From the NCBI GenBank assembly GCA_025403435.1, contig CM046330.1, positions 29,470,381 through 29,534,380 on the forward strand: DNA of 64,000 nucleotides, written 5' to 3'. Both the position numbers and the translations under genes were made by a program. Below the pieces are notes generated by a model. It was not told the origin of the DNA and did not search any database. It saw only the letters and a program-made list of their open reading frames with translations. This DNA comes from Artocarpus heterophyllus. Lineage: Eukaryota; Streptophyta; Magnoliopsida; Rosales; Moraceae. Below, in pieces: positions 4,673 to 61,764 of the stretch; positions within the stretch are counted from its first letter, which is position 1; the number at the start of each line of letters is the position of its first letter.

Positions 4673-4854
4673 TCGGCAGGCCGATCTGGGTGATCGGTCT
4701 GCCGATCATGGTGGTTCGGCCTGCCGAACATGAAGGTTCGGCCTGCCGGCAGAGCACCAAAATTTCTGCCCCACTGTCGGTCTGCCGGACCATGCGTCCG
4801 GCCTGCCGATCTGTGACATTCGGCCTGCCGAACTGTGAGGTCCGGCATGCCGAC
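4673..4854 (-). promoter_or_regulatory. phased palindrome array in copy A leader
   Basis: Eight imperfect palindromes close to TTCGGCCTGCCGAA begin at 4673, 4693, 4715, 4737, 4776, 4796, 4819 and 4840. Steps are 20, 22, 22, 39, 20, 23 and 21 bp. Each could be a dimeric protein site in DNA, or in RNA a 5-bp stem with a 4-base loop. The region is GC-rich in AT-rich surroundings. Function is unknown; the array itself is directly visible. Confidence 0.85.
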
Positions 4855-12560: not shown

Positions 12561-14529
12561 TGTTGGAAAAACGGTGCGCAACAGATTTTTTTTAAAAAAA
12601 TTTATATCAGAGTAATTTCCAAAACACAAGTTTGACATGCTATGTGCATAAATTAACTAGATCTTACTAATCTTTGTGTACTGAAAAACCTTCGCAACCT
12701 GTGAAGAGAAGTAACCTTTGTCTTCTTTGCTATTCTCTATCCACAACCGGAGTGAGTGTGGGCTCACACGTATAGCTCTTCCACCGGTGACTCTCCTTCC
12801 AACCAATTGAGAGAACCCAAAGCTAGTGTTCGTGATTTGTGAACAAAAGCTCTCAGAGAGTTTTTAGATGCTCAGTAGCAGAGTATTAGTCTTAATCTCA
12901 CAATTGATCTGATTAACTCATAAGGCTTACTCCCTTTATATAGAGATTGGTCCGAGGGTTAGTCCTCATCAGATTAGGTCTCAAAATTCAGATCAGAGTC
13001 AAATTTAGATCTATATATGATAAGATCTGTATGAAAATGCGTAATCTTATCGCTCGTTGATCGGCAAGCCGAACAGCCTGATCGACAGGCCGAACTGCCG
13101 CGTAAATATCTCCGCGAATCTTTTATTTTCCACTCGAGATTCTATAGGATAAAGTCTTAGTTTTAATTCAAATAACCCAATAGAGAAGTTATCTGATCAA
13201 AACAACTTTATCTAGATAATCTCTAAGAAAATAAATCAATTCTCAATAATTCTACAAGTTTATCTTGATCTAATTTATCCAAAATTAAATCAACCGATAA
13301 ATAGACAAGAATTATCTGATCCCAATAATTTAACAAGTTTATCTTGAATTAATTTATTACAAAATTAATTCAATCGATAAACAAACATGAATTATTTGAT
13401 TCTTCCAAATTTCAACCAATCTGATAAATCTGACATAAGTCACCAATTATTGGAAAAGCACGCCGTGTCCTTACGGGATGTTGTGAGCTAGCAAAGGGGA
13501 CCAAATTGACCTATATAGTTCAAGCTCTTGATAATTATGAAACCCAATATCCCAGATATACATTTCATAATTATCAACTCCAACGCTGCTCCACTAAAAG
13601 CTTGGAGCTACACTCTCAAACTACATAGAATTACAAAGCTCGTATAGCGAAGCCTCCATGACATATCATAGTGTATCGTATCCCCATATGATAATCCATA
13701 ATCAGCTTAAGGACAAGTTCTGTCTTACCTTCCCAATTATTTTTATCTTACATTCTATTATCCCACAATTAGAAAACTTACTATCCAAAGACAGTATACT
13801 ATTCGATTACACCTATGTATCCAAATGGTTGAGCGCTCCAGTTTTCCAATTATAAGACAACGCATATAAGAGGATATCATTACTCCTAAAGAGGAGCTAT
13901 GGATTCCATATCTATGAATAACAAATCTATGCCATCAAGAGTCATGCCTCCAACGTACCGACATGCATACCACTATTAAGATGTGGGCGTCACCCTTTGG
14001 TACATCAAAAGACACAAGCCAAGACAACGGGCCCACTATCCATCTCAGGATTAAGATACAACACAAATGATTGTCTAAAGTAAATCAATTTGCCGAGACA
14101 GAATTATTAATCCAAATCAATTCACTTTATGTCCCGATCCAACACATTGTCACCTATGACAACATGTCAATGTTTCTATTCATGGAGTCCACCTCCGATG
14201 GTCAAGACAAACCATCTCGCAAAAGGGATATAGATAACATAACAATCTTTGCATGAATAAAGTGCCTAACTTTATTCCCTCGATTGCAGATCATATGATT
14301 TAGACTATCACCTTAAGAATCATGTCTTTCGCATAATCCGTCCATCATATGCACAATTCTTAAGGTTTAGATGACAGTCTTAGACTATTGTTTGCTTAAC
14401 ATACATTCAACAAATATGAACGTAAAGAGGGCAAGATTTGGTATATAAATAATGAACAAATTCTTTATTAATAAAAATGTCTCCAAAAACTTATTACATT
14501 TTTCCTCCTTAGGGCATACATGTCTAACA
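12561..14529 (-). repeat. 3' LTR of copy C (1,969 bp)
   Basis: Bounded by TGTTGG on the left and TCTAACA on the right. It is 65 bp shorter than the 5' LTR of the same element: a 21-bp gap near 12716 plus two fewer units (44 bp) of the 22-bp palindrome repeat near 13060-13096. TATA box on the minus strand at 12934-12944. Confidence 0.93.
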
Positions 14530-18501: not shown

Positions 18502-20178
18502 TTTTAATCTACAATAAAGAATCATATACCAAATATAAGCAAACATATCATAATAATTTAGTAAGATAACACAATCATGTAAAATCATACAAATGTGTTT
18601 ATGTGTCAAAACCTTGAAAATCTCACAACCTTACAACGATAATTCCCAGCTTAGAATTCAACAAGCACCTAGGGGAGTCATGCTAAATTCAAACAGGAAC
18701 ATGGATCCCCTCCTGATTAATAAATGCCATCCAGGACTCGTATGATCTAGCATATATTAATAATCGTTTCTTTGGCCATTAATTTTATTAACAGAGCTCC
18801 TAGGGGAGGTTAATAATAAAATTTACATGAGTGTATAACCATCGTTTCAATATTTTATCCATGATTTATAATCACCACCTAGGGGTGTGCAACCATAAAT
18901 CATACTAAAATACCTTATCCTCTCAGAGATCCAATCTAATACATGATAGAAACCCTTCCTAGGGGTCGGGACCAGCATGTTCTGCCTATAGACCAACGAT
19001 GGAGGCCTTAGGTCCTCTCTTCGAAAACCTTCTCCCACTCAATCTTTTAAAATCAAGGCTTTACTTTAAGAATATGCATGAACAATTTTAATATGAGCGG
19101 CACTCCCTATTCTATATGACATGTTATCAATATACATGGCAAATTATATTATAATGCAGACAAGCAAAGCAATCAAGCAAAGCTACAAGCAAAATAATAG
19201 TAATAACCGTAATATTATGGCTCCACCCTAGAGAATAGAAAACTAAGATTACAAGAGAATAATAGAGACATATTATCAATTCTTCATCCTTAAATCCTCA
19301 AGCTGTATCCTTCTTCATGCAATGTCCATCTTCAAGTCTTCAATCCTGTATGAATTGAATACTTCATATTTCTGGTCATTTCCAAATTTAATGTTTCTCA
19401 GAATCGTCCCAAAAATAAAAATAAAACTGCACCGAAAAAATTGCATATTTTTTAGAAATTTTTTAGCTCTCGGTCGGCAGGCTGATCTAGGTGATCGGCC
19501 TACAAGTCATGTTCCATCGGCCTGCCGACCCATGAAAGTTAGGCCTGCCGAACTAGAACTTCAGCCTGCCAGCAGAGCCAGCCAATTTCTACCCCACTGA
19601 CGGCCTACCGAACCATACGTCTGGCCTGTCGATCTATGACTATCGGCCTGCCGAACTGAGGGTTCGGCATGTCTACCGAGCAGAAATCTCCCATTCCCGA
19701 AAATATAATTTTAATGCAATTCATCAATTTTATTTTCAACATTTCAAAAACATAAAATTAGAGACTCAGGAAAAACCTAAGTGCGCCATCATCCATCTTC
19801 TAGATTCGTCTTCTTTGAATAATTACTTAATTATAAAATTTTACAAATTTAAAATTAAACAATAATTCCTAGACAGAGATGATAGTCTGTCATCTAATTA
19901 TATGAAAAACTTAGATACAAATTCTAACCTCTAAGAAACCATAACCGGTATTAATTAATCAATTAATAAATAATTAAATAACCATTTAATCAACCATAAT
20001 TAATTAATGAACATTTACCATATAATCCACGACAACATATAATTATATAGAAACCTAGAGTGCCATCTCTCTATAAAAGTAAATTCAAGCATAGGAGAGA
20101 TTAAGATCACAAAATTTACGCATGCAACATGATCACAAACTCGTAAATTTATATAAAAACCATGGCTCTGATACCAAT
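18502..20178 (-). other. leader and primer-binding site of copy C
   Basis: Primer site at 20164-20177 is the perfect TTGGTATCAGAGCC on the minus strand, one base from the 5' LTR. The leader is about 1.68 kb without a gene and aligns with that of copy A. Confidence 0.85.
19473..19676 (-). promoter_or_regulatory. phased palindrome array in copy C leader
   Basis: Nine sites begin at 19473, 19494, 19516, 19539, 19560, 19598, 19619, 19642 and 19663. Steps are 21, 22, 23, 21, 38, 21, 23 and 21 bp. Several sites have mutated arms, but the spacing, including the long step, matches copies A, H and I. Confidence 0.8.
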
Positions 20179-22212
20179 TGTTAGAAAAACGGTGTGCAGT
20201 GAAATTTTAAAAGATAAATTTATATCAGAGTAATTTCCAAAACACAAGTTTGACATGCTATATGCATAAATTAACCAGATCTTACTAACCTTTGTGTACC
20301 GAAGAACCTCAGCAACCTGTGAAGAGAAGTAACGTTCCAGAAGAGCCTCAACCAACTGGTCTTCTTTGCTATTCTCTATCCACAATCGGAGTGAGTGTAG
20401 GCTCACATGTACAGCTCTTCCACTGGTGACTCTTCTTCCAACTAATTGAGAGAACCCAAAGCTACTGCTCGTGATTTGTGAACAAAAGCTCTCATGGAGT
20501 TTTCAAATGCTCAGTAGCAGAGTATCACTCTTAATCTCTCAATTGATCTGATTAACTCATAAGGCTTACTCCCTTTATATAGAGATTGGTCCTAGGGTCA
20601 GTCCTCATCAGATTGGGTCTCAAAATTCGGATCAAAATCAAATTCAGATCTATATCTGATAAGATCTGCATGAAAATGCGTAATCTTATCGCTCGCTGAT
20701 TGATAGGCCGAATAGCCTGATTGGTAGGCCGAACAGGCCCCATCGACAGGCCAAACACGTGTATCGACAGGCCAAACTGCCGCGTAAATATCTCCATGAA
20801 TCTTTGATTTTCCATCCGAGATTCTATAGGATAAAGTCTCAGTTTTAATTCAAATAACCCAATAGAAAAGTTATTTGATCAAAATAACTTTATCTAGATA
20901 ATCTCTAAGAAAATTAATCAATTCTCAATAATTTTACAAGTTTATCTCGATCTAATTAATCCAAAATTAAATCAACCGATAAACAGACAAGAATTATCTG
21001 ATCCCAATAATTCAACAAGTTTATCTTGAATTAATTTATTACAAAATTAATTCAACCGATAAACAAACATGAATTATTTGATTCTTCTAAATTTCAACCA
21101 ATCTGATAAATCCGACATAAGTTACCAATTATTGGAAAAGCATGCCGTGTCGTTACAGGATGTTGTGAGCTAGCAAAGGGGACCAAATGGACCTATATAG
21201 TTCAAGCTCTCAATAATTATAAAACCCAATATCCCAGATATATATTTTATAATTATCAACTCCAATGCTACTCCACTAAAAGCTTGGAGCTGCACCCTCG
21301 AACTACATAGAATTACGAAGCTCATATAGCTAAGTCTCCATGACATATCATAGTGTATCGTATCCCCATATGATAATCCATAATCAGCTTAAGTACAAAT
21401 TCTGTCTTACCTTCCTGATTATTTTTATCTTACATTCCATTATCTCACCATTAGAAAACTTACTATCCAAAGATAGTATACCATTTGGTTACACCTATGT
21501 ATCCAAATGGTTGAGCGCTCTAGTTTTCCAATTACAAGATAACGCATATACGAGGATATCATTACTCCTAAAGAGGAGCTATGGATTCTATATCTATGAA
21601 TAACAAGTCTACACCATCAAGAGTCATGCCTCCAATGTACCGGCATGCATACCGCTATTAAGCTATGGGTGTCACCCTTTGGTACATCAAAAGACACAAG
21701 CCAAGACAACGGGCCCACTATCCATCTCAGGATTAAGATGCAACACAAATGATTGTCTAAAGTAAATCAATTTGCCGAGACAGAATTATTAATCCCAATC
21801 AATTCACTTTATGTCCCGATCCAACACATTGTCACCTACGACAACATGCCAATGTTTCTATTCATGGAGTCCACCTCCGATGGTCAAGACAAACCATCTC
21901 CCAAAAGGGATATAGACAACATAACAATCTTTACATGAATAAAGTGCCTGACTTTATTCCCTCGATTGTGGATCATATGATTTAGACTATCACCTTAAGA
22001 ATCGTGTCTTTCGTATAATCCGTCCATCATATGCCCAATTCTTAAGGTTTAGACCGACAGTCTCAAACTATTGTTTGCTTAAGATACATTCAACAAACAT
22101 GAACGTAAAGAGGATAAGATTTGGTATATAAATAATGAACAAATTCTTTATTGATAAAAATGTCTCTAAAAACTTATTACATTTTTACTCCTTAGGCCAT
22201 ACATGTCTAACA
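20179..22212 (-). repeat. 5' LTR of copy C (2,034 bp)
   Basis: TGTTAG on its left edge (the U5 end, mutated from TGTTGG) and TCTAACA on its right. Four palindrome units at about 20697, 20720, 20742 and 20763 lie upstream of the TATA box. The transcribed part carries a short open frame also present in copies F and I. Confidence 0.93.
20573..20582 (-). promoter_or_regulatory. TATA box of copy C 5' LTR
   Basis: CTATATAAAG on the minus strand, about 395 bases before the LTR end, followed by AGTAAGCC as in the other LTRs. The palindrome units lie about 115-200 bases upstream. Confidence 0.75.
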
Positions 22213-24699: not shown

Positions 24700-27600
24700 T
24701 GTAACACCCACCATTTTTCTTGTAACGGTTAATGATAGATATATAATGACGTTAAGTATTTTCTTTATGATATAATGTTACTGACCATTTATTTGAGAAT
24801 TTTGACAAGTGACAGTCATGTAGAATTGATGTGCTTAAGGTGTTCATGTCACTTATAATGTGTGTATGATAAATATTTAATGTTTTAATAGCATGTAATA
24901 TTGAATGTGGTACTTTGGTAGGCCGATCCTAAGTAATCGGCAAGTCGAAGGCTGCTGACAAGAAATCAGTAGATAATTCCTAAAATTACAACATTGATAA
25001 TTAATTTGTTGAGAAAATTCTAAATAATTGATATATATTATCTATTTCCTTGTCTATGATTAGGGAAGGTTTGACTTTTTAAAAGAAAAGATTTGATTTT
25101 TGTGATAAGGTTTCTTAATTTGAAAAGATAAGATTTGATAGTTAGAGCGAATCTTGGACTTTTTCCTTATCTTTCCCTATCCTAAAAGCATACCCCTAAT
25201 TTTTAAAGAAAATCCGCTTCAAATATAGAGAAGATCATTTTCTTTTCACATCATTCTCAATTTTCACGAATATATTTGTCTCTCTCAAAAATCATTTTCT
25301 CTCCTCCCTCTCTCTAAAATTTTCTCAGACATTCTCTTCCTATCCACATGTTTTTCTTCCCCTTCTCTCCCTTATTTTTCCTACAAATAATTGAATGAAA
25401 TCTTGGGTTTTCACTTAGTCAAATTTAAGGAAAGCTTGAGAAGAATTGTTTTGAGGTAAGAAACTCATTCTAGATTATTTCTTAAATTTTTGGGAACGTT
25501 TGTTTCATGCATTCTTTGAACTCAATGGACTCAAATTTGGATTCAAGTATCAACAATCCTTCAGATACGTGTCTGTATCCCTCAAAATCCAAATCATTTG
25601 AGTATCAAGAATCCAAGTTTTCAAAGTTTTCATCCCCCTTAAACTTTTGATACTCGGATATCTTTGTTACAGTAAAAACTAAAATTCTCTCTCCTATATT
25701 TGAGGAAAAAATTTATAACTTCTTCATTTGATATCCAATTGAGATGATTCTTTTTTCACTATGTTGCTAATGAAGAGAGGAATAAATCAAGATCCATATT
25801 GCATATTTTTTAAGATCATTAATATTAAGATTTTATAGATTTATTAATAAATCAAAAACTATCTTCACTACATCTCTAAACACAAATTTCAATTTTATTC
25901 CTTACTCAAATTAAAATTTAAATGCACATCCAAATATCAATTCAAAAAATAATTCAAATCACTAACTCAAATCCTAATTCAAATCACACTAACTCAAATT
26001 AAATCACTAATTCGAATCCATTTATCAAACAGACATGTATTCTCTCCTTAATTTGACCCCCATAACTTTGACTATGAATGTCCGTTTGCTGTGAAATTTT
26101 AGTATGATATTTATATATAGGTTATATGATATTCCTCAAAATTTTATACTATTTGGACTTTTCTATGCTGAGATATTGAATTTTTATTCTCTACCACTCT
26201 TGATCAAACTATTGCTGATCAATTAGGTTTTACAAAAATGTAGTCTATGTTCGAGGGGCAAACAAATTGTGATTTGAATGAAATTTGCAAAATATTCATA
26301 CATATGTTAGGTTATGATTTGAAAAATTTTGTGGTGATTTGATGAATATTTGATGAGTTCTTGAATTTTCTTTAAGATAGGTCTTTATGGCTGTTAAATC
26401 AATGATTGTAGACTTCTTGCTTATGGTCTTAGGTATTTAGGGTTTATTTTGTCCTTGAATTCTAATACACATTTTTAATTGTTGAAATTTTTTTTGAGGC
26501 TAATTTTTAGATATGTTGTAGTTTTAGTTGTCTATTACATGTAGGATTTTATGAGATTATTTTGTGACATAGATAATTTATCATATGATTATTTGTTAGG
26601 GTTGCTCATTGTTTTGTGGTTACTGGCAGTTTTTGTGTTGGCTGTTGTGTGACTTATTTTAATTGTCTAATGGAATTTTTATGGTTAATGAAAAATTAGG
26701 GTAATTTATATATATGTTAATTATGTCTCTACAAAGTTTCAAGCCTTATTTATGTATGAATGGTGAATAATTGAGTTGTGTATCTTTAAGGGTTAGGCAG
26801 GTTGTTATATCATAGATTTTGCACGAACAATTGTAAGATGGTAAAATGTACTTGTGTTCTTGTGTTTCTTGAGATGGAAGTATTAATGATGTCTTATAGT
26901 ATTGGATGATTTCATGAAAATAAAAATTAATTTTATTTGTATATGGATGTATGACATGAACACTCCAAGAAGTGAACACATTGAGACTGCAACAATGTCA
27001 CACATAAGGAACGAGATAATGAACGGCGAGAAAGAAAAGATCGAGGAATCATAATATGCATAGGGAAAATATAGAGGTGGACCATGAAGAGTTTCATTAG
27101 ATGACATTCCTCGAATTATGAATAGAACTATATGAGATGTAAAGAAGAAAGGAAGATGACGTATAGAACCTAAGGTTATCATGTTTAAGTAGTTTGTGTA
27201 AGTATACCCTCCACTGCCTCACTTCAACAATAGTTTGTTTAAAGCATGTTTTAAAGTTATGTATTTTATAATGATGAATATGTTTAAAGATGTATGATTC
27301 TTCATGAGTATGATGTGAACTCTCTTGTTGTCATGTACCAGTCACGTTATTCATATGTATATGGTCAAATCCTTGAGGAATAAGTAAGTTCTAAGATAGG
27401 GACCATTCATGTATGTATATTATGGGTTTTGGCTGCTTGAGATTAATGTTATACTACGGGCCCTAAAACCTAAAAATTATGTTTATGAAAAGTATTTTTT
27501 ATGTGGAACTACTATATGGTTTACTTACTAAGCTATGTGCTTGTATAGTTCTCGTGATGCAGGTGAACTTCAAAGCTAAGGATTCTAGATGATTGAGCAA

Positions 27601-32429: not shown

Positions 32430-32658
32430 CACGATGATTTTTTACCATCGTGTAATAGGTAAATTGGCGCGAGAAGGGGGTAGAATGGGGTAATTTTCCA
32501 CGACGGTTTTTCAAGAAACCGTCGTGGAATCGCTAGTGTTCGACAATGGTTTTTCAAAAAACCATCGTGGAACACTAAGAATTCCACGATGGTTTTTTGA
32601 AAAACCATCGTGGAAAACTAAGGATTCCACGACAGTTTTTCAAGAAACCGTCGTGAAA
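32430..32658. repeat. CACTA subterminal hairpin repeats, outer group
   Basis: Palindromic units of about 34 bp with arms like CCACGACGG and CCGTCGTGG begin at 32496, 32538, 32582 and 32625 (steps 42-44 bp). A shorter one occupies 32430-32452. CACTA termini typically carry such repeats as binding sites for the element's accessory protein. Confidence 0.8.
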
Positions 32659-32661
32659 TCC
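32657..32661. repeat. target site duplication AATCC, left of gypsy D
   Basis: AATCC here and at 36339-36343, directly outside the two LTR ends of element D. Confidence 0.9.
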
Positions 32662-34846
32662 TGTCACGCCCCGGAGTACGGGAGGTGACGTGGTGGGTTA
32701 TTTAAATTAATTAAAGGAGAATTTAATTAAAACCAATGGTTTAAGGATCAAATTAAGTGAGAAATAAGAAGATTTCAACCACATTTTTACAAAAGAATTT
32801 ATAATATTAAGCAAATAATAAAAATTAATAAAGAACCGCGAGTATGGGTCCCAAAGACCCACAACTTGTGCACAGATGTGGTACTGACAATATCATAAAT
32901 ACAATCACAGTCCAGGGTACAAATAAAGTTAAATCTTACATGCCTTGATTAAATAACACAAAATATAAATCAATCCTCCTATTGCTCCTAAGTTCGGTCC
33001 GAAGAATCCTCTCCAAACCTAAATGGGAAACCACCTAGAGGGGAAATTTAAAACAAATAAAACGTGAGCGAAAGGCTCAGTAGGACTATGTTTTACAAAA
33101 TAATTTAATTTAAAGGAACATTTCATTATTCAGGAATTATTTAAAAGAAACCTTAAATAAATAAATAGATAAATAAATAAACAATTTTAAGTAAAACCAT
33201 TCTTACCCAGAATAGTTTACTTAGATAACTAGAAATATCATTTTCTTTTTCCTAGGCAAACCATAGTATCACCACCGTAGTGGCCCAGCTGGGTTTCGGG
33301 ACCTGCCCCCAAGGTCGATCGCTACATGACCCGATCTCTGATATGGCATCATGCCTATGTGTTTATTATCATCATCATTCAAAACCCAATTACCAAGTGT
33401 TGTCATTTACATTCATTATGAAGTTCATTTCAGATCACGGTATATTAAAATATAACCGATAAATTCATTTTCAAACAAACGTTGAAAACATTTTAATAGA
33501 AATCCTTTTCAAAGCCAAATCATTACAAAACCAGGCTACCAAAGAAATGAGGTAGAAGTCCTACCTCAATACTCGCGCCGGTATCCCACACCGTAATCCC
33601 GGTCCGCTATACGTTAGCTCCGCGAAACCACGAACAATCCTAGATACAAACTAAGTCGATTAATATCTAGTTCAAGACATCCTATGTTACTAAATCATTT
33701 CATGATGTCCTAGTGTGCCATTTGTACCTTTAAAATCATTCTATAAAGTTGGAATTTAAATCAGGGTTCAAAATAGTGAAAACAGGTGAAAATCACAAAA
33801 ATTTCCATGCCTCGGTCGGCCTACCGGACTTCCTGCTTCGGCCGGCCGAACTGCACAGTTCGGCCTGCCGGAAGCCAGGTCCGGTCGGCCGGTCATTTCC
33901 TTAGGTTCGGCCTGTCGGATGGAAGAACACCGGCCTGCCGATCCCTGTTTCGGCCTGCCGAACACGCAGTTCAGCCTGCTGAACTGGGAAAACCCAAAAA
34001 TTCCAGCCACGGGTTTCGATTTCCCCAAAACCCAAATCTTGATTCTAACCTATTTTTCTCAAATCCCAGGCATAGAAAATATTCATAGATGATAGAAAAA
34101 CATGTATAGACACTTTTGAACACATTTAAACGAGATTCAAACACAAAAATCCCAAAAATCCAAAAATAGGAAAAATTGAGGAAAAATGAAAAATCTTGAA
34201 TTCAATCTGTTTTTCTTCAATCTAAGCTTAGATTCTAGTTGTTCTAAGTTCATTTAACTCAAATCCATGGTTTTCTAAGCTTAAACAAACCTAGATTTCA
34301 AAAATGCACAAAATTGAAAATTTTGTAAAAAGTTTAGAAATTTCAAATCTAACCTCGAATCGAAGCTTCAATCCGCGTTCTCGGTTGCTAAATCATGTCC
34401 CCGAGCTTCCTCCTTGCTAACCTAAAGCTTGGATTCGAATTTGATTTCAAAAATTTTGAGAGAGATGTAGAGAGAGAGAGGGTTGCCGAGAGACCAAGAG
34501 AGAGAGAGTGAATGAAGAGAGAGAGAGAAACCGGAGAGAGTGAGGAGAGAGGAGGAAGAGAGAGAATAAATAGAGAAAATCGGTGGACGGTTTTACTGTG
34601 CAAAAACCATGTGCCGCCCACGGTTTTGTGAAACAGAGTATTTTTAACATTTTACAAATTGTTGTGTTTTAAAACTAAAAACATCATTTTAAAACAATAA
34701 GAAATCATTTGGATTCACCAAATTAACAAAACAACCAAAATTTCAAAATCCAACCCAATAATCAAATTTATGTTAAAACATTAGTTATGGCACACTAATT
34801 CATCATTTACGTTACATTAACATTAAATAAATTTTGGGGCGTTATA
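32662..34846 (-). repeat. 3' LTR of gypsy D (2,185 bp)
   Basis: Reading leftward it starts TATAACGCCCC (first G changed to A) and ends GGGGCGTGACA. It contains a palindrome array (33815-33983) and a long GA/CT-rich tract (34455-34572) just downstream of a possible TATTTAT box. The pyrimidine tract is probably transcribed leader. Confidence 0.9.
33815..33983. promoter_or_regulatory. phased palindrome array in gypsy D LTR
   Basis: Eight palindromes of the TTCGGCCTGCCGAA type begin at 33815, 33837, 33859, 33880, 33906, 33929, 33949 and 33970. Steps are 22, 22, 21, 26, 23, 20 and 21 bp. Same motif and pitch as in the copia leaders, although the surrounding element is unrelated. The sites at 33837 and 33949 have perfect 6-bp arms. 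Confidence 0.85.
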
Positions 34847-34859
34847 ACTCTCCACCCCT
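34847..34859 (-). other. polypurine tract of gypsy D
   Basis: Minus strand AGGGGTGGAGAGT directly before the 3' LTR, typical for plant gypsy elements. Confidence 0.8.
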
Positions 34860-34893: not shown

Positions 34894-35872
34894 TCAAAAA
34901 CAAAACAAATGCGGATACAATTCCCGCATACTCGACTCTAGCTCCCAAGTGGCTTCATCAACCCCGTGATGCTGCCACACGACTTTTACCAACGGTATCT
35001 CACGACGATGCAAGCTAATCACTTTCTGGTCAATAATCTGAATCGGCACTTCTTCGTAAGTCGTATCCTCCTGAACCTGCACATCATGAAATGAAACTAT
35101 CTTACCTTGCTCAGGAGGACACTTCCTAAGCATCGACACATGAAACACATCGTGCACATGAGAAAGTTCGGATGGAAGATCAAGCCGATAAGCGACCACA
35201 CCAACACGCTGAGTGATCTCGAAAGGCCCAATATACCTCGGCGCGAGCTTCCCACTTATTCTGAACCGCATAGTTCCCTTACGAGGCGATACCCTCAAGA
35301 GAACGAAATCTCCAACCGCGAACTCTAAGGGTCTATGTCTTCTATCTACGTAGCTCTTCTGTCGACTCTGAGCTGCCCTCAATCGATCTCGAATCACCGC
35401 GACTTTCTCATTGCTATCATGAATCTCATCCAGCCCAAGAATAACCCTATCTTCCAGGTCGGCCCAACACACAGGTGACCGACACGGTCACCCATACAAC
35501 GCCTCAAACGGTGCCATACCAATACTCACCTGATAACTGTTGTTGTACGCGAACTCTGCCAAATGCAAACATTGCTTCCAATTTCCGCTGAAGTCCAACG
35601 CATAGGCACGCAACATATCCTCGAGAACCTAAATAACCCGCTCAGACTGCCCATCAGTCTGAGGATGAAATGCCATACTGAAGTTCAAATCCGTACCTAA
35701 AGCCTCCTGAAAACTCCTCCAGTACTTAGCATTAAACCTGGTGTCTCGATCAGAGGTGATGGACAAAGGAACCCCATGCAACCTCACAATATTCTGCAGA
35801 TACAACTCCCCGAGAACCTTCCTCGAACACATCGACCTAAACGGAATGAAATGCGTCGATTTCACAATATTC
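34894..35872 (-). pseudogene. gypsy D pol fragment: integrase core, C-terminus and chromodomain-like tail
   Basis: From 35865 leftward comes the integrase core (IVRLHGVP, SDRD, then AFHPQTDGQSERVI with the catalytic E). After it runs an integrase C-terminal stretch (RPLEFAVGDFVLLRVSP) and a chromodomain-like tail ending VDEATWELES and YPHLFCF (35472-34894 is open). Two stops break the frame, one after QSERVI (CAG to TAG) and one after EALYG (CGA to TGA). Both are C-to-T changes, as expected from decay of methylated DNA. The order integrase then chromodomain identifies a chromovirus. Confidence 0.9.
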
Positions 35873-36338
35873 TCGGTTGCTAAATCACGTCACCGAGCTT
35901 CCTCCTTGCTAACCCAAAGCTTGGATTCGAATTTGATTTCAAAAATTTTGAGAGAGATGTAGAGAGAGAGAGGGTTGCCGAGAGACCAAGAGAGAGAGAG
36001 TGAATGAAGAGAGAGAGAGAAACCGGAGAGAGTGAGGAGAGAGGAGGAAGAGTGAGAATAAATAGAGAAAATCGGTGGGCGGTTTTACTGTGCAAAAACC
36101 ATGTTCCGCCCATGGTTTTGTAAAACAGAGTATTTTTAACATTTTACAAATTGTTGTGTTTTAAAACTCAAAACATCATTTTAAAACAATAAGAAATCAT
36201 TTGGATTCACCAAATTAACAAAACAACCAAAATTTCAAAATCCAACCCAATAATCAAATTTATGTTAAAACATTAGTTATGGCACACTAATTCATCATTT
36301 ACATTACATTAACATTAAATAAATTTCGAGGTGTTACA
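35873..36338 (-). repeat. truncated 5' LTR of gypsy D
   Basis: Matches 34380-34846 of the 3' LTR almost base for base, including the GA-rich tract, then stops at TTCTCGGTTGC where integrase sequence begins. Start TGTAACACCTCG at the right edge. Confidence 0.9.
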
Positions 36339-36343
36339 AATCC

Positions 36344-36480
36344 TTACTGTTCCATGACCTTTTTTGAAAAACCATCATGTAACAGTAAGGATTCCACGAT
36401 GGTTTCTTAAAAAACCATCGTTGAAAATTTGTATTCCCCTAAAAATAAATCTCCAAAAATTTTTGATTTCCCGCAGGATG
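36344..36480. repeat. CACTA subterminal hairpin repeats, inner group
   Basis: Two more hairpin units at 36350-36384 and 36391-36426, with the same arms and spacing as 32496-32658. They continue the array interrupted by gypsy D. Confidence 0.78.
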
Positions 36481-45209: not shown

Positions 45210-46826
45210 TTTTAACCTACTATAAAGAATCATATACCAAACATAAGCAAATATATAATAATAATTTAGTAAGATAACACAATCATGTAAAAAATACAAA
45301 TGTGTTTATGTGTCAAAACCTTGAAAATATCACAACCTTACAACGATAAGTCCCAACGTAGAATTCAACAAGCTCCTAGGGGGGTCATGCCAAATTCAAT
45401 CAGGAACACAGATCTCCTCCTGATTAATATATGCCATCCAAGACCCGTATGATCCAACATATATTAATAATCGTTTCTTTGGCCATTAATTTTATTAACA
45501 GAGCTCCTAGGGGAGGTTAATAATAAAATTAACGTGAGTGTATGACCATCGTTTTAACATTTTATCCCTGATTTATAATCACCACCTAGGGGTGTGCAAC
45601 TATAAATCATGCTAAAATACTTTATCCCCTCAGAGATCCAATCTGGTACATGATAGAAATCCCTTCCTAAGGGTCGGGACCACCATGTTCTGCCTATGGA
45701 CCAACGATGGAGGCCTTAGGTTCTGTCTTCAAAAACCTTCTCCCACTCAATCTTTTGAAATTAAGGTTTTATTTTAAGGATATGCATGAACAATTTTAAT
45801 ATGAGTGGCACTCCCTATTCTATATGATATGTTATCAATATACATGGTAAATCATATTATAATGCAAACAAGCAAAGCAATCAAGCAAAGCTACAAGCAA
45901 AATAATAAATAACCGTAATATTATGGCTCCACCCTAGAGAATAGAAAACTAAGATTACAAGAGAATAATCGAGACATATTATCGATTCTTCATCCTTGAA
46001 TCCTCAAGCTGTATCCTTCTTCATGTAATTCCTATCTTCAAGTCTTCAATGCCGTGTGAATCGAAAACTTCATATTTTCGATCATATCCAAATTTAATGT
46101 TTCTTAGAATTGTCCCAAAAATAAAATTAAAACTACATCGAAAAAACTGCACCTTTTTTGGAAATTTTCTAACTCTCGGTCGGCAGGCCGATGCCAGTCA
46201 AGCTCCATCGGCCTGCCGACTCATGAAATTTTAGCCTACCGCCAGAGCCACCTGAATTCTACCCCACTAACGGCCTACCGAACTTCCAGTTTGGCCTGTC
46301 GATCTGCGACCATCGGCCTGCCGAACAAGAAGAAATCTTCATTCCAAAAAATACAATTTTTAATGCAATTCATCAATTTTATTTTCAACAATTCAAAAAC
46401 ATAAAATTAGAGACTCAAGAAATACTTGGGAGCATCATCATCAATCTTCTACATCTGTCTTCTCTGAATAATTATTTAATTACAAAATTCTTACAAATTT
46501 AAAATTAATAACAATTCCTAGACGGAGATGATAGTCCGTTATCTCATTACATGAAAAACCTAGATGCACATTCTAACCTCTAAGGAACCATAAACGGTAT
46601 TAATTAATTAATTAATAATTAATTAAATAACAGTTTAATCAACCATAATTAATTAATAAATATTCACCATATAATCCATGACAACATATATAATATATGG
46701 AAACCTAGAGTGCCAACTCTCTTTAAAATTAAATTCAAGTATATGAGAGATTAAGATCACAAAATTTATACATATAACACGATCACAAACTTCTAAATTT
46801 ATGCAAAACCTCGCTTTGATACCAAT
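45210..46826 (-). other. leader of copy F with mutated primer site
   Basis: The primer site at 46812-46825 reads TTGGTATCAAAGCG on the minus strand, two changes from the canonical sequence. Palindrome sites begin at about 46179, 46207, 46230, 46269, 46290 and 46312 and keep the 39-bp step, although units have been lost on the left. Confidence 0.8.
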
Positions 46827-48769
46827 TGTTGGAAAAATATGTGCAGTGAAATTTTAAAAATTTTACATTAGAGTATTTTTCAAAACATAAGTTTGACATG
46901 CTATATGCATAAATTAACCAGATCTTACTAACCTTTGTGTGTTGAAGAACCCTTGCAAAACATGAAGAGAAGTAACGTTCTAGAAGAGCCTCAACCAACT
47001 GGTCTTCTTTGCTATTCTCTATCCATGACTGAAGTGAGTGTGGGCTCATACATACAGTTCTTCCACTAGGTGACTTTCCTTCCAACCAACGAGAGAACCC
47101 AAAGCAAGTGTTCGTGATTTGTGAACAAAAGCTCTCAGAGAGTTTTCAGATTCTCACTAACAGAGTATCACTCTTAATCTCTCAATTGATATGAGTAACT
47201 CTTAAGACTTACTCCCTTTATATATAGATTGGTCCTGGGGTCAGTCCTTATCAGATTAGGTCTCAAAACATGAAATAGAATCAAGTTCAGATCAATATCT
47301 GATAAGATCTACGTGGAAACATGTGATCTTATCCTTCCCTGATTGGCAGGTCGAACCACTTGATCGGCAGGCCAAACAGGCCTCATCGACAGGCCGAACA
47401 CATCCATCGGTAGGCCAAACTGTCGAAAAAAATCTCGCAAATCTTTTATTTTCCACCAAAGATTCTATAGGATAAAGTCTTAGTTTTAATTCAAATAACC
47501 CAATAAAGAAGTTATCTAATAAAAACAACTTTATCTAGATAATCTCTAAGAAAATAAATCAATTCCCAATAATTCTACAAGTTTATATTTATCTAATTTA
47601 TCCAAAAATTAAATCAACTGATAAACAGACATGAATTATCTGATTCTTTCAAATTTTAACCAATCTGATAAATCTGACGTAAGTCATCAATTATTCGAAA
47701 AGCATGTCGTGTCGTTACAGGATGTTGTGAGCTAGCAAAAGGGACCAAATGGACCTATATAGTTCAAGTTTCTGATAATGACGAAACCCAATATCCCAGA
47801 TATACATTTCCCAATTATCAACTCCAACACTACAACACTAAAAGCTTGAAGTTGTACTCTCAAACTACATAGAATTATGAAGCTTGTATAGCTAAGTCTC
47901 CATGACTTATCGTAGTGTATCGTATCCCTATATGATAATCCATAATCGGCTTAAGGACTAGTTCTGTCTTACCTTCCTGATTATTTTTATCTTATGTTCC
48001 ATTATCTCACCATCAGAAAACTTACTATCCAATGATAGTATACCATTTGGTTATACCTATGTATCCAAATGGTTGAGCGCTCTAATTTTCCAATTACAGG
48101 ATAACACATATAAGATGATATTATTATTCCTAAAAAGGAGCTATGGATTCCATATCTATGAATAACAGGTCTACGCCATCAAGAGTCATGCCTCCAATGT
48201 ACTGGCATGCATACCACTATTAAGATGTGGGTGTCACCCTTTGGCACATCAAAAGACACAAGCCAAGACAACAGGCCCACTATTCATCTTAGGATTAAGA
48301 TACAACACAAATGATTGTCTAAAGTGAATTGATTTACCGAGACAAAATTATTAATCCAAATCAATTCACTTTATGTCCCGATCCAACAAATCGTCACCTA
48401 TGACAATGTGCCAATGTTTCTATTACGAAGTCCACCTTCGATGGTCAAGACAAACAATCTCCCAAAATGGATATAGACAACATAACAATCTTTGCATGAA
48501 TAAAGCGCCCAACTTCATTCCCTCAATTGCGGATCTTATGATTTAGACCATCACTTTAAGAATTGTGTCTTTTGCATAATCCGTCCATCATATACCCAAT
48601 TCTTAAGGTTCAGATCAATAGTCTCAGACTTTTGTTTGCTTAACATACATTCAACAAATATGAATGTAAAGAGGACAAGATTTGGTACATACATAATAAA
48701 TTCTTTATTGATAAAAATGTCTCCAAAAACTTATTACATTTTTACTCCTTAGGGCATACATGTCTAACA
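46827..48769 (-). repeat. LTR shared by copies F and G (1,943 bp)
   Basis: Acts as 5' LTR for F (primer site on its left) and as 3' LTR for G (polypurine tract TGCAAGTGGGAGAT on its right, at 48770-48783). TATA box on the minus strand at about 47215-47226; four palindrome units at about 47339-47420 upstream. Confidence 0.9.
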
Positions 48770-49989: not shown

Positions 49990-52009
49990 TGTTAGACAAT
50001 TATGCCCTAAGGAGTAAAAATGTAATAAGTTTTTGGAGACATTTTTATCAATAAAGATTTTATTCATTGTTTATATACCAAATCTTGTCCTCTTTACATT
50101 CATATATGTTGAATGTATGTTAAGCAAACAATAGTTTAAGATTGTCAGTCTAAACCCTTAAGAATTGGACATATGATGGACAGATTATGCGAAAGACATG
50201 ATTCTTAAGGTGACAGTCGAAAACATAAGATCCACAATCAAGGGAACAAAGTTGGACGCTTTATTCATTCAAAGATTGTTATGTTGTCTGCATCCCTTTT
50301 TGGGAGATGGTTTGTCTTGACCATTGGAGGTGGACTCCGTGAATAGAAACATTGGCATGTTGTCATAGGTGACAATGTGTTGGATTGGGACATAAAGTGA
50401 ATTGATTTGGATTAATAATTTTGTCTTGGCAAATCAATTCATTTTGGACAATCATTTGTATTGTATCTTAATCTTGGGATATATAGTGGGCCCGTTGTCT
50501 TAACTCGTATCTTTTGATGTACCAAAGGGTGACACTGACATCTTAATAGTGGTATGCATACCGGTACATTGGAGGCATGACTCTTGATAGTGTAGACTTG
50601 TTATTCATACATATGGAATCCATAGCTCGTCTTTAGAAGTAATGATATCCTCTTATATGTCTTATCATGTAATTGAAAAAGTAGAGCGCTCAACCATTTG
50701 GATACATATGTGTAACCGAATGTTATACTGTCTTGGATAGTAAGTTTTCTGATGGTGAGATAATGGAACATAAGATAAAAATAATCAAAAAGGTTCGACA
50801 GAACTTGTCCTTAAGCCGATTATGGATTATCATATAGGGATACGATACACTATGATATGTCATGGAGACTTAGCTAAATGAGCTTCGTAATTCTATGTAG
50901 TTCGAGTGTGCAGCTCCAAGCTTTTAGTGGAGTAGCGTTGGAGTTGATAATTATGAAATGTATATCTAAGATATTGGGGTTCATAATTATCGGGAGCTTG
51001 AACTATATAGGTCCATTTGGTCCCCTTTGCTAACTCACAACATCCTGTAATAACATGACGTGCTTCTCCAATAATTGGTTACTTATGTCAGATTTATCAG
51101 ATTGGTTAAAATTTGAAAGAATCAAATAAGTCATGTCTGTTTATCAGTTGAATTAATTTTGTGATAAAATTAATTTAAGATAAACTTGTTGAATTATTGG
51201 GATTGGATAATTCTTGTTTGTTTATCAGTTGATTTAATTTTGGATAAATTAGATCAAGATAAACTTGTTGAATTATTGGGAATTGATTTATTTTCTTAGA
51301 GATTATCTAGATAAAGTTGTTTTGATCAGATAATTTCTCTATTGGGTTATTTGAATCAAAATTGAGACTTTATCCTATAGAATCGTGGGTGGAGAATAAA
51401 AGATTCACGGAGATATCTTACCAAGATCCATGTGTTCGACCTACTGATGGGGTCTGCTCGGCCTACCAATCAAGATGTTTGGCCTGCCGATGAGCGAAGG
51501 ATAAGATTACGCATTTTCACGCGGATCTTATCAAATATTGATCTGAACTTGATTCTGTTTCAAGTTTTTGAGACCTAATCTGATAAGGACTGACCCTAGG
51601 ACCAACCTCTATAAATAGGGAGTAAGTCTTAAGAGTTACTCATATCAATTGAGAGATTAAGAGTGATACTCTACTAGTGAGAATCTGAAAACTTGCTGAG
51701 AGCTTTTGTTCACAAATCACAAACACTAGCTTTGGGTTCTCTCGATTGGTTGGAAGGAGAGTCACCTTGGTGAAGAGCTGTGCGTGTGAGCCCATACTCA
51801 CTCTGATCATGGATAGAGAATAGCAAAGAAGACCAGTTGATTGAGGCTCTTTTGGAACAATACTTCTCTTCATGTTTTGCGAGGGTTCTTCGGCATACAA
51901 ATGTTAGTAAGATTTGGTTAATTTATGCATATAGCATGTCAAACTTGTGTTTTAGAAAATACTCTGATGTAAAATTTTAAAAATTTCACTACATACTATT
52001 TTTTCAACA
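49990..52009 (+). repeat. 5' LTR of copy H (2,020 bp)
   Basis: TGTTAGACAAT start, TTCAACA end. TATA box CTATAAATA at 51609-51617. Palindrome units at about 51433, 51457 and 51477. Confidence 0.92.
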
Positions 52010-53685
52010 ATTAGTATCAGAGCTATGGTTTTTACATAAATTTACGAGTTTGTGATCATGTTATATGTATAAATTTTGCGATCTTAATCTCTCCTATGCT
52101 TGAATTTGATTTTATAGAGAGTTGGCACTCTAAGTTTATATATAATATATATGTTGTCATGGATTATATGGTCAATGTTTATTAATTAATTATGGTTGAT
52201 TAAATTATTATTTATTTATTTATACCAGTTATGGTTCCTTAGAGGTTAGAATGTGTATCTAGGTTTTTCATGTAATTAGATAGCGAACTATCATCTCCGT
52301 CTAGGAATTGTTATTTAATTTTAAATTTGTAAGAATTTTGTAATTAAATAATCATTCAGAGAAGATGGATCTAGAAGGCAGATATGGAAGATGGATGATG
52401 GCGCACCTAGGTATTTCCTGAGTCCCTAATTTTTGTTTTTGAATTGTTGAAAATAAAACTAAAGAATTGCATTAAAAAATTATATTTTCCAGAATGAAAA
52501 TTTATGCTCGGTCAGCATGCCGAGCCTCATAGTTCGGCAGGCCGATGGTCACAAACCGACAGGCCGGACGTGAGGTTCGGCAGGCCATCAGTGGGGCAAA
52601 AATCAGGCAGCTCTGGCGGCAGGTCAAACTTTCATGTGTCGACAGGCTGATCATCCAGATCGACAGGCCGATGGAGCATGACCGGCAGGTTGATCGTCTA
52701 GATCGGCCTGCTGACCGAGAGCTGGAAAATTTCCAAAAAAGGTGTAGTTTTTTCGATGCAATTTTAGTTTAATTTTTGGGATAATTTTAAGAGACATTAA
52801 ATTTGGATATGACTGAAAATATGAAGTATTCGATTCATATGGGATTGAAGACTTGAAGATGGGTATTACATGAAGAAGGATACAGCTTGAGGATTCAAGG
52901 ATGAAGAATCAATTAAATGTTTCGATTATTCTCTTGTAATCTTAATTTTCTATTCTCTAGAGTGGAGCCATAATATTACGATTATTTATTATTTTGCTTG
53001 TAACTTTGCTTGATTGCTTTGCTTGTCTGCATTATAATATAATTTGCCATGTATATTGATAACATGTCATATAGAATAGGGAGTGCCGCTCATATTAAAA
53101 TTGTTCATGCATATTTTTAAAATAAAACATTGATTTCAAAAGATTGAGTGGGAGAAGGTTTTCGAAGAGAGAACTTAAGGCCTCCATTGTTGGTCCATAT
53201 GTAGAACATGGTGGTCTCGACCCATAGGAAGGGATTTCAATCATGTACCAAATTGGATCTCTAAGAGGATAAGGTATTTTAGCATGATTTATGGTTGGAC
53301 ACCCCTAGGTGGTGATTGTAGATCATGGATAAAATATTGAAACGATGTTTATACACTCACGTTAATTTTATTATTAACCTCCCCTAGGAGCTCTGTTAAT
53401 AAAATTAATGGCCAAAGAAATGATTATTAATATATGCTGGATCATACGGGTCCTGGATAGCATATATTAATCAGGAGGGGATCCGTGTTCCTGATTGAAT
53501 TGAGCATGACTCTCCTAGGAGCTTGTTGAATTCTAAATTGGGAATTATTGTTGTAAGGATGTGACATTTTCTAGGTTTTGACTCATAAACACATTTGTAT
53601 GTTTTTACATGATTGTGTTATCTTACTAAATTATTATCATATGTTTGCTTATGTTTGGTATATGATTCTTTATTGTAGATTAAAA
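52010..53685 (+). other. leader of copy H with palindrome array
   Basis: Primer site 52011-52024 is TTAGTATCAGAGCT (two changes). Nine palindrome sites begin at 52511, 52533, 52555, 52576, 52615, 52638, 52659, 52681 and 52702. Steps are 22, 22, 21, 39, 23, 21, 22 and 21 bp. Individual arms are eroded, but the spacing is intact. Confidence 0.82.
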
Positions 53686-57576: not shown

Positions 57577-59575
57577 TGTTAAACATGTATGCCGTAAGGA
57601 GTAAAAACGTAATAAGGTTTTGGAGACACTTTTATCAATAAAGAATTTATTTATTGTTTATATACCAAATATGAGACACTTTATGTTCATATTTGTTGAA
57701 TATGTGTTAAGCAAACAATAGTCTGAGACTATCGGTCTAAACCTTTAAGAATTGGGCATATGATGGACAAATTATGTGAAAGACACGATTCTTAAGGTGA
57801 CGGTCTAAAACATAAGATCCACAATCAAGGGAATAAAGTTGGGCGCTTTATTCATGCAAAGATTGTTATGTTGTCTATATCCCTTTTTGGGAGATGGTTT
57901 GTCTTGACCATTGGAGGTGGACTCCATAAATAGAAACATTGGCACGTTGTCATAGGTGATGATGTGTTGGATTGGGACATAAAGTGAATTGATTTGGATT
58001 AATAATTCTGTCTCGGCAAATCGATTCACTTTAGACAATCATTTGTGTTGTATCTTAATCTTGAGATGAATAGTGGGCCCATTGTCTTGACTTGTGTCTT
58101 TTGATGTACCAAAGGGTGACACCCACATCTTAATAGTGGTATGCATGCCGGTACGTTGGAGGCATGACTCTTGATAGCATGGACTTGTTATTCATAGATA
58201 TGGAATCCATAGCTCCTCTTTATGAGTAATGATATCCTCTTATGTGTGTTATCCTGTAATTGAAAAACTGAAGCACTCAACCATTTGGATACATAGGTGT
58301 AACCGAATGATATACTATCTCAGATAGTAAGTTTTCTGATGGTGAGATAATGGAACGTAAGATAAAAATAATCTGGAAGGTAAGAGAGAACTTGTCCTTA
58401 AGCCGATTATGGATTATCATATGGGGATACGACACACTATGATATGTCATGGAGACTTAGTTAAACAAGCTTCGTAATTCTATGTAGTTCGAGAGTGTAG
58501 CTCCAAGCTTTTAGTGGAGTAGCATTGGAGTTGATAAATATTAAATGTATATTTGGGATATTGTGTTTCATAATTATCGGGAGCTTGAACTATATAGGTC
58601 CATTTGGTCCCCTTTGCTAACTCACAACATCCTATAATAACATGACATGCTTTTCCAATAATTGGTGACTTATGTCAGATTTATCAGATTGGTTAAAATT
58701 TGAAAGAATCAAATAATTCATGTCTATTTATCAGTTGAATTAATTTTGTGGTAAAATTAATTTAAGATAAACTTGTTGAATTATTGGGATTGGATAATTC
58801 TTGTTTGTTTATCGGTTGATTTAATTTTGGATAAATTAGATCAAGATAAACTTATAGAATTATTGAGAATTCATTTAATTTCTTAGAGATTATCTAGATA
58901 AAATTGTTTTGATCTGGTAAATTCTCTATTGGGTTATTTGAATTAAAACTGAGACTTTATCCTATAGAATCTCGGGTGGTAAATAAAAGATTAACAGAGA
59001 TATCTTTTCGGCAGTTCGGCATGCTGATCCACATGTTCGGCTTGCCGATGAAGATGTTTGGCCTACCGATGAGCGAAGGATAAGATTAAGCTTTTTCACA
59101 TGGATCTTATCAGATATTGAGCCAAACTTGATTCTGTTTCGAGTTTTTAAGACCTAATCTGATAAGGACTGACCCTAAGACCAACCTCTATAAATAGGGA
59201 GTAAGTCTTAAGGGTTATTCAGATCAATTGAGAGATTAAGAGTGATACTCTGCTAGTGAGAATCTGAAAACTCCCTAAGAGCTTTTGTTCACAAATCATG
59301 AACACTAGCTTTGGGTTCTCTTGATTGACTGGAAGGAGAGTCACCTTGGTGTAGAGCTGTATGTGTGAGCCCACACTCACTCCAGTCGTGGATAGAGAAT
59401 AGCAAAGAAGACCAGTTGGTTGAGGCTCTTTTGGAACGTTACTTGTCCTCACGTTTTGCAAGGGTTCTTCGATGTGCAAAGGTTAGTAAGATTTGGTTAG
59501 CATATCAAACTTGTGTTTTGGAAAATACTCTAACGTAAAATTATTAAAATTCCGCTACGTACTATTTTTTCAACA
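57577..59575 (+). repeat. 3' LTR of copy H (1,999 bp)
   Basis: TGTTAAACATG start, TTCAACA end. TATA box 59188-59196. Three palindrome units at about 59008-59070. A 16-bp inverted repeat (57981-57996 and 58017-58032, arms AAAGTGAATTGATTTG) is conserved in U3 of the family. Confidence 0.92.
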
Positions 59576-59771: not shown

Positions 59772-61764
59772 TGTTAGACATGTATGCCCTAAGGAGTAAA
59801 AATGTAATATGCTTTTGGAGACATTTTTATCAATAAAGAATTTATTCTTTTATATATTCTAAATCTTGTCCTCTTTACATTCATATTTGTTGAATGTATG
59901 ATAAGCAAACAGTAGTCTGAGACTGTCAGTCTAAACCTTAAGAATTTGGCATATGATGGACTGATTATGCGGAAGACACGATTCTTAAGGTGACTATCTA
60001 AAACATATGATCCGCAATTGAGGGAATAAAGTTGGGCGCTTTATTCATGTAAAGATTGTTATGTTGTCTATATCCCTTTTGGGAGATGGTTTGTCTTGGC
60101 CATCGGAGTTGGACTCCGTGAATAGAAACATTGGCGCGTTGTCATAGGTGACGACGTGTTGGATCGGGACATAAAGTGAATTGATTTGGATTAATAATTC
60201 TGTCTCAGCAAACCGATTCACTTTAGACAGTCATTTGTATTGTATCTCAATCCTGAGATGAATAATGGGCCCGTTGACTCGACTTGTGTCTTTTGATGTG
60301 CCAAAGGGTGATACCCACATCTCAATAGTGGTATGCATACTGGTACGTTGGAGGCATGACTCTTGGTAGCGTAGACTTGTTATTTATAGATATGGAATCT
60401 ATAGCTCCTCTTTAGGAGTAATGATATCCTCTTATATGCGTTGTCCTATAATTGGAAAACTAGAGCACTCAACCATTTGGATATATAGGTGTAACCGAAT
60501 GGTATACTATCTTTGGATGGTAAGTTTTCTAATGGTGAGACAATGGAACGTAAGATAAAAATAATCGGGAAGGTAAGACATAACTTATCCTTAAGCTGAT
60601 TATGGATTATCATATGGGGATACGATACACTTTGATATGTCATGGAGACTTAGCTACACGAGCTTCATAATTCTATAAAGTTTGAGAGTGTAGCTCCAAG
60701 ATTTTAGTGGAGTAGCGTTGGAGTTGATAATTGTGAAATGTATATCTGGGATATTGGGTTTCATAATTATCATGAGCCTGAACTTTATAGGTCCATTTTG
60801 GTCCCCTTTGCTAGCTCACAAAGTCCTGTAATGACACGGCGTGCTTTTCCAATAATTGGTGACTTATGTCGGATTTATCAGATTGGTTTAAAATTTGTAA
60901 GAATCAAAAAATTCATGTTTATTTATCGGTTGAATTAATTTTGTAAGAAATTAGTTCAAGATAAACTTGTTGAATTATTGCGATCAGATAATTCTTATCT
61001 GTTTATCGATTGTTTTAATTTTGGACAAATTAGAACAAGATAAACTTGTAGAATTATTGTAATTGATTTATTTTCTTAGAGATTATCTTGATAAAGTTTG
61101 TTTTGATCAGATATCTTCTCTATTGGGTTATTTGAATCAAAACTGAGACTTTATCCTTTAGAATCTCGGGTGAAAAATAAAAGATTCACGGAGATTTTTT
61201 GTCGGGAGTTCGGCTTGTCGATCAGAATGTTTGGCCTGTCGATCAGCGGGAGATAAGATTACGCATTTTCACACGGATCTTATCAGATATTGATCCGAAC
61301 TTGATTCTGTTTCAAGTTTTTTAGACATAATCTGATACGGACTGACCCCAAGACCAATAGCTATATAAAGGGAGTGAGTCTCATGATTTACTTAGATCAA
61401 TTTGAGAGATTAAGAGCGATACTCTTCTAGTGAGCATCTAAAAACTCCCTGAGAGCTTTTGTTCACAAATCACAAACACTAGCTTTGGGTTCTCTCTATT
61501 GGTTGGAAGGAGAGTCACCGGTGGAAGAGCTATACGTGTGAGCCCACACTCACTCCGGTTGTGGATAGAGAATAGCAAAGAAGAACAGTTGGTTGAGGCT
61601 CTTCTGGAACGTTACTTCTCTACACAGGTTGCGGAGGTTTTTCGGTACACTGAGGTTAGTAAGATCTGTTTAATTTATACATATAACGTGTCAAACTTAT
61701 GTTTTGGAAATTACTCTGATGGAAAATTTTAAAAAAAATTCTACTGTGCACTTTGTTTCCAACA
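59772..61764 (+). repeat. 5' LTR of copy I (1,993 bp)
   Basis: TGTTAGACATG start, TTTCCAACA end. TATA box CTATATAAAG at 61361-61370. Two to three palindrome units at about 61206-61245. It gives the best picture of the full LTR from which the LTR of copy A was shortened. Confidence 0.93.
61499..61732 (+). other. short frame in the transcribed part of LTR I, shared with other copies
   Basis: A 77-codon frame with SLRLWIENSKEEQLVEALLE and RYFSTQVAEV. Closely similar frames lie on the sense strand of LTR C (20406-20149) and LTR F (47085-46783), and partly in A and H. It precedes the gag start, so it would be an upstream reading frame. No known domain; shared ancestry alone may explain the similarity. 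Confidence 0.3.

Follow-up and report, generated by a model that had tools for sequence, protein, structure and literature searches.

A palindrome array shared by a copia family and two chromovirus-like families of Artocarpus heterophyllus, with features suggesting binding sites for a host factor

Introduction

The closest known system to the arrays described here is the set of repeated motifs (RM) of Sireviruses, CGG-CCG palindromes that lie in many copies upstream of the TATA box (PMC2829016). That account describes RM as Sirevirus specific and absent from classic copia elements; the palindromes differ in most of its 13 Sirevirus elements, several of which have a second cluster outside the LTR, and a semi-conserved motif at the PBS junction is reported there for some classic elements as well. 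A supply of small RNAs has been argued for the palindromes of maize Sireviruses (2016 work cited by PMC10760457 and PMC5311732). For anti-silencing arrays, the model is provided by the VANC targets, repeats found in VANDAL elements of Arabidopsis (PMC5735166, PMC10398659).

The window analyzed here is a 64,000-nt stretch of A. heterophyllus contig CM046330.1, a nest of plant LTR retrotransposons. An original prediction held that the LTR of a gypsy element in it, element D, carries the palindrome array of unrelated copia leaders at the same pitch, through either exchange between superfamilies or parallel evolution. In the collection searched, the strings of the exact 12-mer palindrome matched a T-cell paper and a delta-proteobacteria paper and no plant or transposon paper, and searches on LTR palindromes common to copia and gypsy, cis-regulatory, or of Tekay listed no such title or abstract opening. 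We find the same 12-bp palindrome at similar pitch in numerous copies of three families, one copia and two chromovirus-like, and we propose, at roughly even odds (probability about 0.5), that the array is a cis-regulatory module of sites for a putative dimeric host DNA-binding factor.

Results

Element D lies on the minus strand and is a gypsy copy that has lost part of its interior but retains a 5' LTR fragment, the integrase end, and a complete 3' LTR (Table 1), and it is flanked by a 5-bp target duplication, AATCC on the plus strand, at 32657-32661 and 36339-36343. The copy is fairly young, since its two LTR pieces differ at just 15 aligned bases. Its integrase end matches Pfam SH3_Tf2-1 strongly (E = 8e-27), with a chromodomain match (E = 0.15) below Pfam's cut-off, and PF00385 is present in some of the 120 listed relatives. 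A TATA-like TATTTATT with a CT-rich stretch stands at LTR position 277, about 590 bp upstream of the array, and the box at position 272-277 is kept by four of five D-family LTR copies; computations used 32661-34848 as the D LTR, which is 1 to 2 bases too wide at each end. The target DNA of D, at 32500-32660 and 36350-36440, contains repeated cacgatggttttt..aaaaaccatcgtg hairpins and is possibly the end of another element. Unassigned protein-like sequence lies on the minus strand at 37444-38900, between D and tandem repeats, and the one open frame searched there, 37444-37896, has no Pfam match; A/T-rich tandem repeats of the cacatattcacaaattta type, then a long G-rich stretch, occupy 39115-40080.

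Table 1 Features of the window discussed in the text
Feature	Position	Strand	Remarks
3' LTR of D	32662..34846	-	About 2185 bp; TGT..ACA type, start mutated
D-LTR palindrome array, eight sites	33812..33982	-	Sense TCGGCAGGCCGA type, 20-25 bp steps
Imperfect 21-24 bp direct repeat, one D array edge	33788..33811	+	Flank shuffles
Partner of that direct repeat, opposite D array edge	33988..34008	+	Flank shuffles
D integrase C-terminus	34894..35487	-	SH3_Tf2-1; weak chromodomain
Truncated 5' LTR of D	35870..36338	-	15/473 aligned bases (35870-36342) differ from 3' LTR side
Copia leader array, copy A	4673..4853	-	4 sites, 39-bp step, 4 sites
Copia leader array, copy B	19474..19675	-	
Copia leader array, copy C, shortened	46180..46324	-	
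Copia leader array, copy D52	52512..52714	+	
Copia leader array, copy E62	62279..62458	+	
Copia LTR (U3) array, two sites seen	13061..13093	-	
Copia LTR (U3) array	20700..20775	-	119-194 bp upstream of CTATATAAAGG; centre CT in sense
Copia LTR (U3) array, second copy	47343..47418	-	
Copia LTR (U3) array	51436..51490	+	
Copia LTR (U3) array	59016..59069	+	
Copia LTR (U3) array, two sites seen	61210..61242	+	
Two sites 22 bp apart, old G2-family LTR	24915..24948	+	0/1500 shuffles with such a pair

Within the 3' LTR, at position 867-1037 counted from 34848, TCGGCNNGCCGA-type sites start on the plus strand at 33816, 33838, 33860, 33885, 33907, 33930, 33950, and 33971. Seven have at most two mismatches and the site at 33885 has three. 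Dinucleotide shuffles of the array held at most three sites at the two-mismatch threshold, with 0 of 2,000 reaching seven, and shuffles of the whole LTR (n = 500) likewise held at most three; since shuffles never reach seven sites, a chance origin is excluded. The eight same-motif sites of the D LTR were thereby confirmed, and the equation of their pitch with that of the copia leaders is right. In sense orientation the centre is AG in six of the eight sites, and likewise in 19 of 25 copia leader sites (three copies). The array is 64% GC, compared with 34% in the remainder of the LTR. Ten core positions agree between units at 0.76 and positions 3 to 5 bp outside at 0.23 (0.26 expected), and a plain minisatellite or tandem repeat is ruled out by these spacers at background similarity. 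For the imperfect direct repeats at the array edges, 0, 1, and 6 of 5,000 shuffles were as good with flanks of 30, 40, and 60, and 3 of 388 LTR position pairs (a count that may include this pair) score as well; such repeats might be the trace that an inserted module could leave.

The copia family has LTRs of about 2.04 kb and many copies in the window, and its pol matches the RVT_2, rve, and GAG-pre-integrase models. Four U3 sites lie 119 to 194 bp upstream of a good TATA box, and the fuller leaders carry eight to nine sites, with a 39-bp step after the fourth site in leaders A, D52, and E62. The idea that the U3 arrays are copies of the leader arrays is not supported. At 7900-8010, a copia relative whose body is about 76% identical retains no more than a decayed array at the corresponding leader position, aligning at 26 to 33 and so hardly above shuffles (at most 31). 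In the copia leaders (e.g., 4625-4895; five aligned copies) a non-palindromic outer stem seems to enclose the array as one RNA domain. The Sirevirus PPT, a AGGGGGAG octamer in several copies 10 bp before the 3' LTR, is absent from the one copia copy examined, where one AAGTGGGAG alone stands a few bases ahead of the 3' LTR. The copia PBS junction ctaaca/attgg/tatcagagcc (about 20184-20164) fits the Sirevirus CA/ATTGG/TATCAGAGC and is not decisive, because the semi-conserved motif also occurs in some classic elements (PMC2829016).

G2, a second chromovirus-like family, has LTRs of about 2.9 kb and matches RVT_1 (8e-34), RT_RNaseH, Integrase_H2C2, and SH3_Tf2-1, while its Chromo match (E = 2.7e-4, 21.2 bits) is under the 25.1 cut-off. 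Its first array (four to six sites in four copies) lies near the LTR start, at LTR position 237-362 in copy L026, with no clear TATA near it seen by eye. The second, of six to eight sites near the LTR end, has a mid step of 50 to 51 bp and a 4+4 split in three of seven copies. The pitch is looser (steps of 18 to 27 bp). The old G2 LTR in the window begins at 24700 (match at 24700-24949, 70%). Relative to TATA, the position that the original prediction had singled out for comparison thus varies: upstream for the copia U3 array, downstream for the D array, and not clear for G2. The second, upstream array present in copia and G2 LTRs does not figure in that prediction. Copia, and probably G2, have one array ahead of the promoter and another, with up to eight sites, beyond the predicted start; the only array of D lies in this latter place.

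Carriers were listed in 200 kb made up of 20 stretches of 10 kb (13 picked for their nearness to listed sites and 7, L036-L042, arbitrarily), with an array defined as three or more sites with at most two mismatches and neighbors within 60 bp. All 30 arrays fall in three families, copia, D, and additionally G2: 4 in D, 10 in copia (one, L033 8947, placed by proximity), and 16 in G2 (split halves counted). The seven arbitrary regions contributed five (three copia U3, one copia leader, one D). Among palindromes built from 1,024 half-sites, TCGGC ranks first across the 200 kb (40) and within the window (14) and shares fifth place (4), behind A/T-rich ones, in the seven arbitrary regions alone; 70 of 102 neighbor spacings up to 120 bp are 18 to 24 bp. 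Genome-wide (985 Mb, 334 contigs) exact sites number 78,652 for the motif and 221 for the reversed motif, which serves as control; exact pairs at a 19- to 24-bp pitch number 10,642 and 3, respectively. Rfam and tRNA searches gave no match. Scans of viral contigs and bacterial genomes yielded GC-rich loci (59-73%), prokaryotic or phage-like, and no plant relative. A minisatellite in an uncultured delta-proteobacterium MAG (L010:4990-5253) has 12 nearly identical 22-bp units containing TCGGCAGGCCGA; its spacers are nearly identical, which makes it a different thing, probably a coincidence.

BLAST against the same 20 stretches recovered four further full-length D-family LTRs, 87% (L036), 87% (L025), 82% (L029), and 69% (L024) identical, and three other D-LTR matches: one covers a 71-bp LTR end, and two, in G2, are confined to the array. 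The array occupies the same LTR position in all four; in L024 it is decayed, with just three neighboring sites at two or fewer mismatches and eight traceable at up to four. Capture of a copia fragment by the single D copy, named beforehand as the alternative to a family-wide array, is therefore ruled out. CpG retention in the array versus the rest of the LTR was 1.00/0.90, 0.96/0.86, 0.85/0.69, and 0.71/0.58, higher in the array in each of the four comparisons, and pooled values were 88/100 aligned positions in the array core versus 285/373 elsewhere, all four comparisons sharing the window copy. Overall conservation of core versus LTR was 0.94/0.91 (L036), 0.84/0.90 (L025), 0.81/0.86 (L029), and 0.75/0.76 (L024); the core shows no clear excess over the LTR, an argument against strong selection.

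That lack of a clear difference would suit arrays without function, leftovers that template switching or gene conversion carried from family to family and that persist only through copy number, as would the imperfect direct repeats at the D array edges and a cross-family similarity that is weak and mostly inverted in D. We consider this explanation very unlikely, given that the array persists with its pitch kept in D-family LTRs down to 69% identity, that CpGs are better retained in the D array, and that two families have separate U3 arrays without cross-family spacer similarity.

Base changes bear on another explanation, in which the array would be a silencing or desilencing platform, read by a silencing or anti-silencing factor or feeding small RNAs through a hairpin RNA. 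The motif is dense in CG and CHG sites, and the D array is high in GC. C>T/G>A changes account for 15 of 15 departures from the motif across two copia U3 arrays, for 11 of 16 in copia leader D52, and for 6 of 11 in D, a methylation-like pattern; in copia leaders A and E62, however, they are just 2 of 6 and 2 of 9. The literature offers parallels (PMC10760457, PMC5735166, PMC10398659), although the VANC targets described there belong to elements with VANC proteins. We regard such a platform as improbable.

An array of up to eight sites lies in the presumed transcribed part of all three families, with the 4+4 split of copia leader A and three of seven G2 copies, so that leader arrays might act as RNA, a GC-rich hairpin chain in the genomic RNA serving packaging, dimerization, or translation, and only the U3 arrays would be DNA sites. 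Against dinucleotide shuffles, fold z was -8.4 for copia leader A and -4.3 for D. With motifs fixed and spacers shuffled, z was -2.5 to -3.8 for copia leaders and -1.5 to -2.9 for D, compared with 0.15 and 1.1 for two copia U3 arrays. Across five copia leaders, double changes occur in 6 of 97 between-site pairs and 1 of 32 within-site pairs (cells paired, 0.88 and 0.81). When two flanking bases were also fixed, in a test that omits copia C and L031, the effect shrank, with values of -1.3 to -2.1 for copia (4 copies), -0.7 to -3.1 for the D family (5), and -2.4 to +1.9 for G2 second arrays (6), and one of five U3 arrays reached -4.5. Permuting motif order did not weaken the copia fold (z of -0.5, 0.4, and -0.8), and the RNAalifold covariation term was unfavorable (+5.5). 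Folding beyond the palindromes is thus clear under the loose null and small under the strict one, a real but shrinking support, and stems need neither identical bases across unrelated families nor a 21- to 22-bp pitch; we regard action of the leader arrays as RNA as unlikely. The copies used in the order, fold, and shuffle tests are related, and their counts are not independent.

The statement in the original prediction that no other similarity between the elements is apparent holds: with arrays masked, the best local match between D and copia is an A/T-rich low-complexity stretch (score 35; at most 30 in 30 shuffles), and BLAST matches at E < 0.001 among D, G2, and copia, one reference stretch each, are confined to the arrays. 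Within the arrays, D sites 5 to 8 match sites 4 to 1 of copia leader A reversed, gapless, at 61 of 81 bases (spacers, 26/38). No shuffle of the outer spacers (0/900) equaled this block, and reorderings did so in 4 of 900 cases, or in 2 of 865 when only those breaking the block are counted. Over all pairs tested, D-copia reversed has a mean z of 1.42 (2/20 above 3); G2-copia has 1.51 in sense (4/28 above 3) and 1.10 reversed (0/28); and D-G2 reversed has 1.04 (3/35 above 3). In this comparison, which omits copia leader C, reference values are 0.5 to 0.8 for arrays against their own family's reverse and 6.5 to 10.7 within families. Four G2 arrays match a copia leader in sense with z above 3 and D matches G2 reversed, and therefore the orientations agree with D-copia reversed. 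The order permutation test (0.69, against 0 to 0.015 in positive controls) gives no support to a sense-collinear origin from the copia leaders of the window, and the inverted order test gave 0.001 summed (A, 0.0005; E, 0/2000; D52, 0.0125; C, 0.076; B, 0.38). The copia leader profile scores 41.0 and 40.8 bits on the two strands of D, and 6 of 200 controls do equally well. By BLAST, D and copia match best in sense, at D LTR 870-921; orientation is hard to read because the blocks are roughly self-complementary.

Sharing between superfamilies is thus real, family-wide, and extends beyond D, while on exchange versus parallel evolution there is evidence both ways. The faint similarity, with D mostly inverted relative to copia, hints at an old exchange without proving it, and we hold old exchange and parallel growth to be about equally likely.

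Discussion

The occurrence of one array in the control regions of unrelated families points either to a single cell factor that they all exploit or to transfer of the array from one to another. Under the host-factor reading, a dimeric, sequence-specific host protein would bind some eight palindromic sites in a row, about two helical turns apart, in the LTRs or leaders of several retrotransposon families that are not related. The array would act on transcription, as proposed for the Sirevirus repeated motifs, and the D array would have come by old exchange with a copia-type array. This reading draws on the constant 12-bp palindrome, its two-turn pitch, and the upstream arrays of copia and G2; on three families alike in motif and pitch and in nothing else at BLAST E < 0.001; on the genome-wide excess of sites and pairs over the reversed motif; and on the rank of the TCGGC palindrome and the predominance of 18- to 24-bp spacings. 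It is further favored by the D core agreeing between units while spacers are at background, by the better-kept CpGs of the D array, and by a copia U3 array upstream of TATA, as in Sireviruses. Several observations count against it: the D array lies downstream of the predicted TATA, unlike in Sireviruses; the core overall is not clearly better conserved, and the CpG comparisons share one sequence; the G2 pitch is loose; and some leader arrays fold as RNA beyond what palindromes alone explain. A LOB-domain protein was considered as the factor, but the literature listed gave no support and it is not claimed.

A wider scenario is more tentative: a palindromic control module may have crossed between copia and gypsy, inverted into D, and may now be a shared docking array in several LTR families of one plant genome, with sites that number in the tens of thousands and could either titrate one host factor or respond to it. 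Because exact sites exceed 78,000, transposons could dominate the binding landscape of such a factor, and the question is now directly testable as nuclear protein binding to TCGGCNNGCCGA. That a copia family whose examined copy lacks the Sirevirus PPT shares one palindrome, at similar pitch, with two gypsy families makes what looked like a peculiarity of one lineage a matter of host factors, and it is a possible case of regulatory module exchange between retrotransposon superfamilies.

Among described systems, the VANC targets resemble these arrays as fast-changing tandem repeats in noncoding transposon DNA, but their motifs are targets of a transposon-encoded protein (PMC5735166, PMC10398659). 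Like the present motif, the maize CACCGGACNNNGTCCGGTG palindromes are reported as common to two transposon classes of one genome and are discussed with small RNAs, but they join copia with Helitrons and have another sequence, whereas the families here are copia and gypsy (PMC10760457). The likeness to Sirevirus RM, as set out in PMC2829016, is broader: the palindromes here are CGG-N4-CCG, GC rich, and present in at least eight copies per element (D, 8; copia, 4 in U3 plus 8 to 9 in the leader; G2, 4 to 6 plus 6 to 8), the copia U3 array lies shortly upstream of TATA, and there is a second cluster outside the LTR. Unlike RM as described in that account, an identical palindrome is common to a copia and two gypsy families of one genome, and the D array lies downstream of its predicted TATA.
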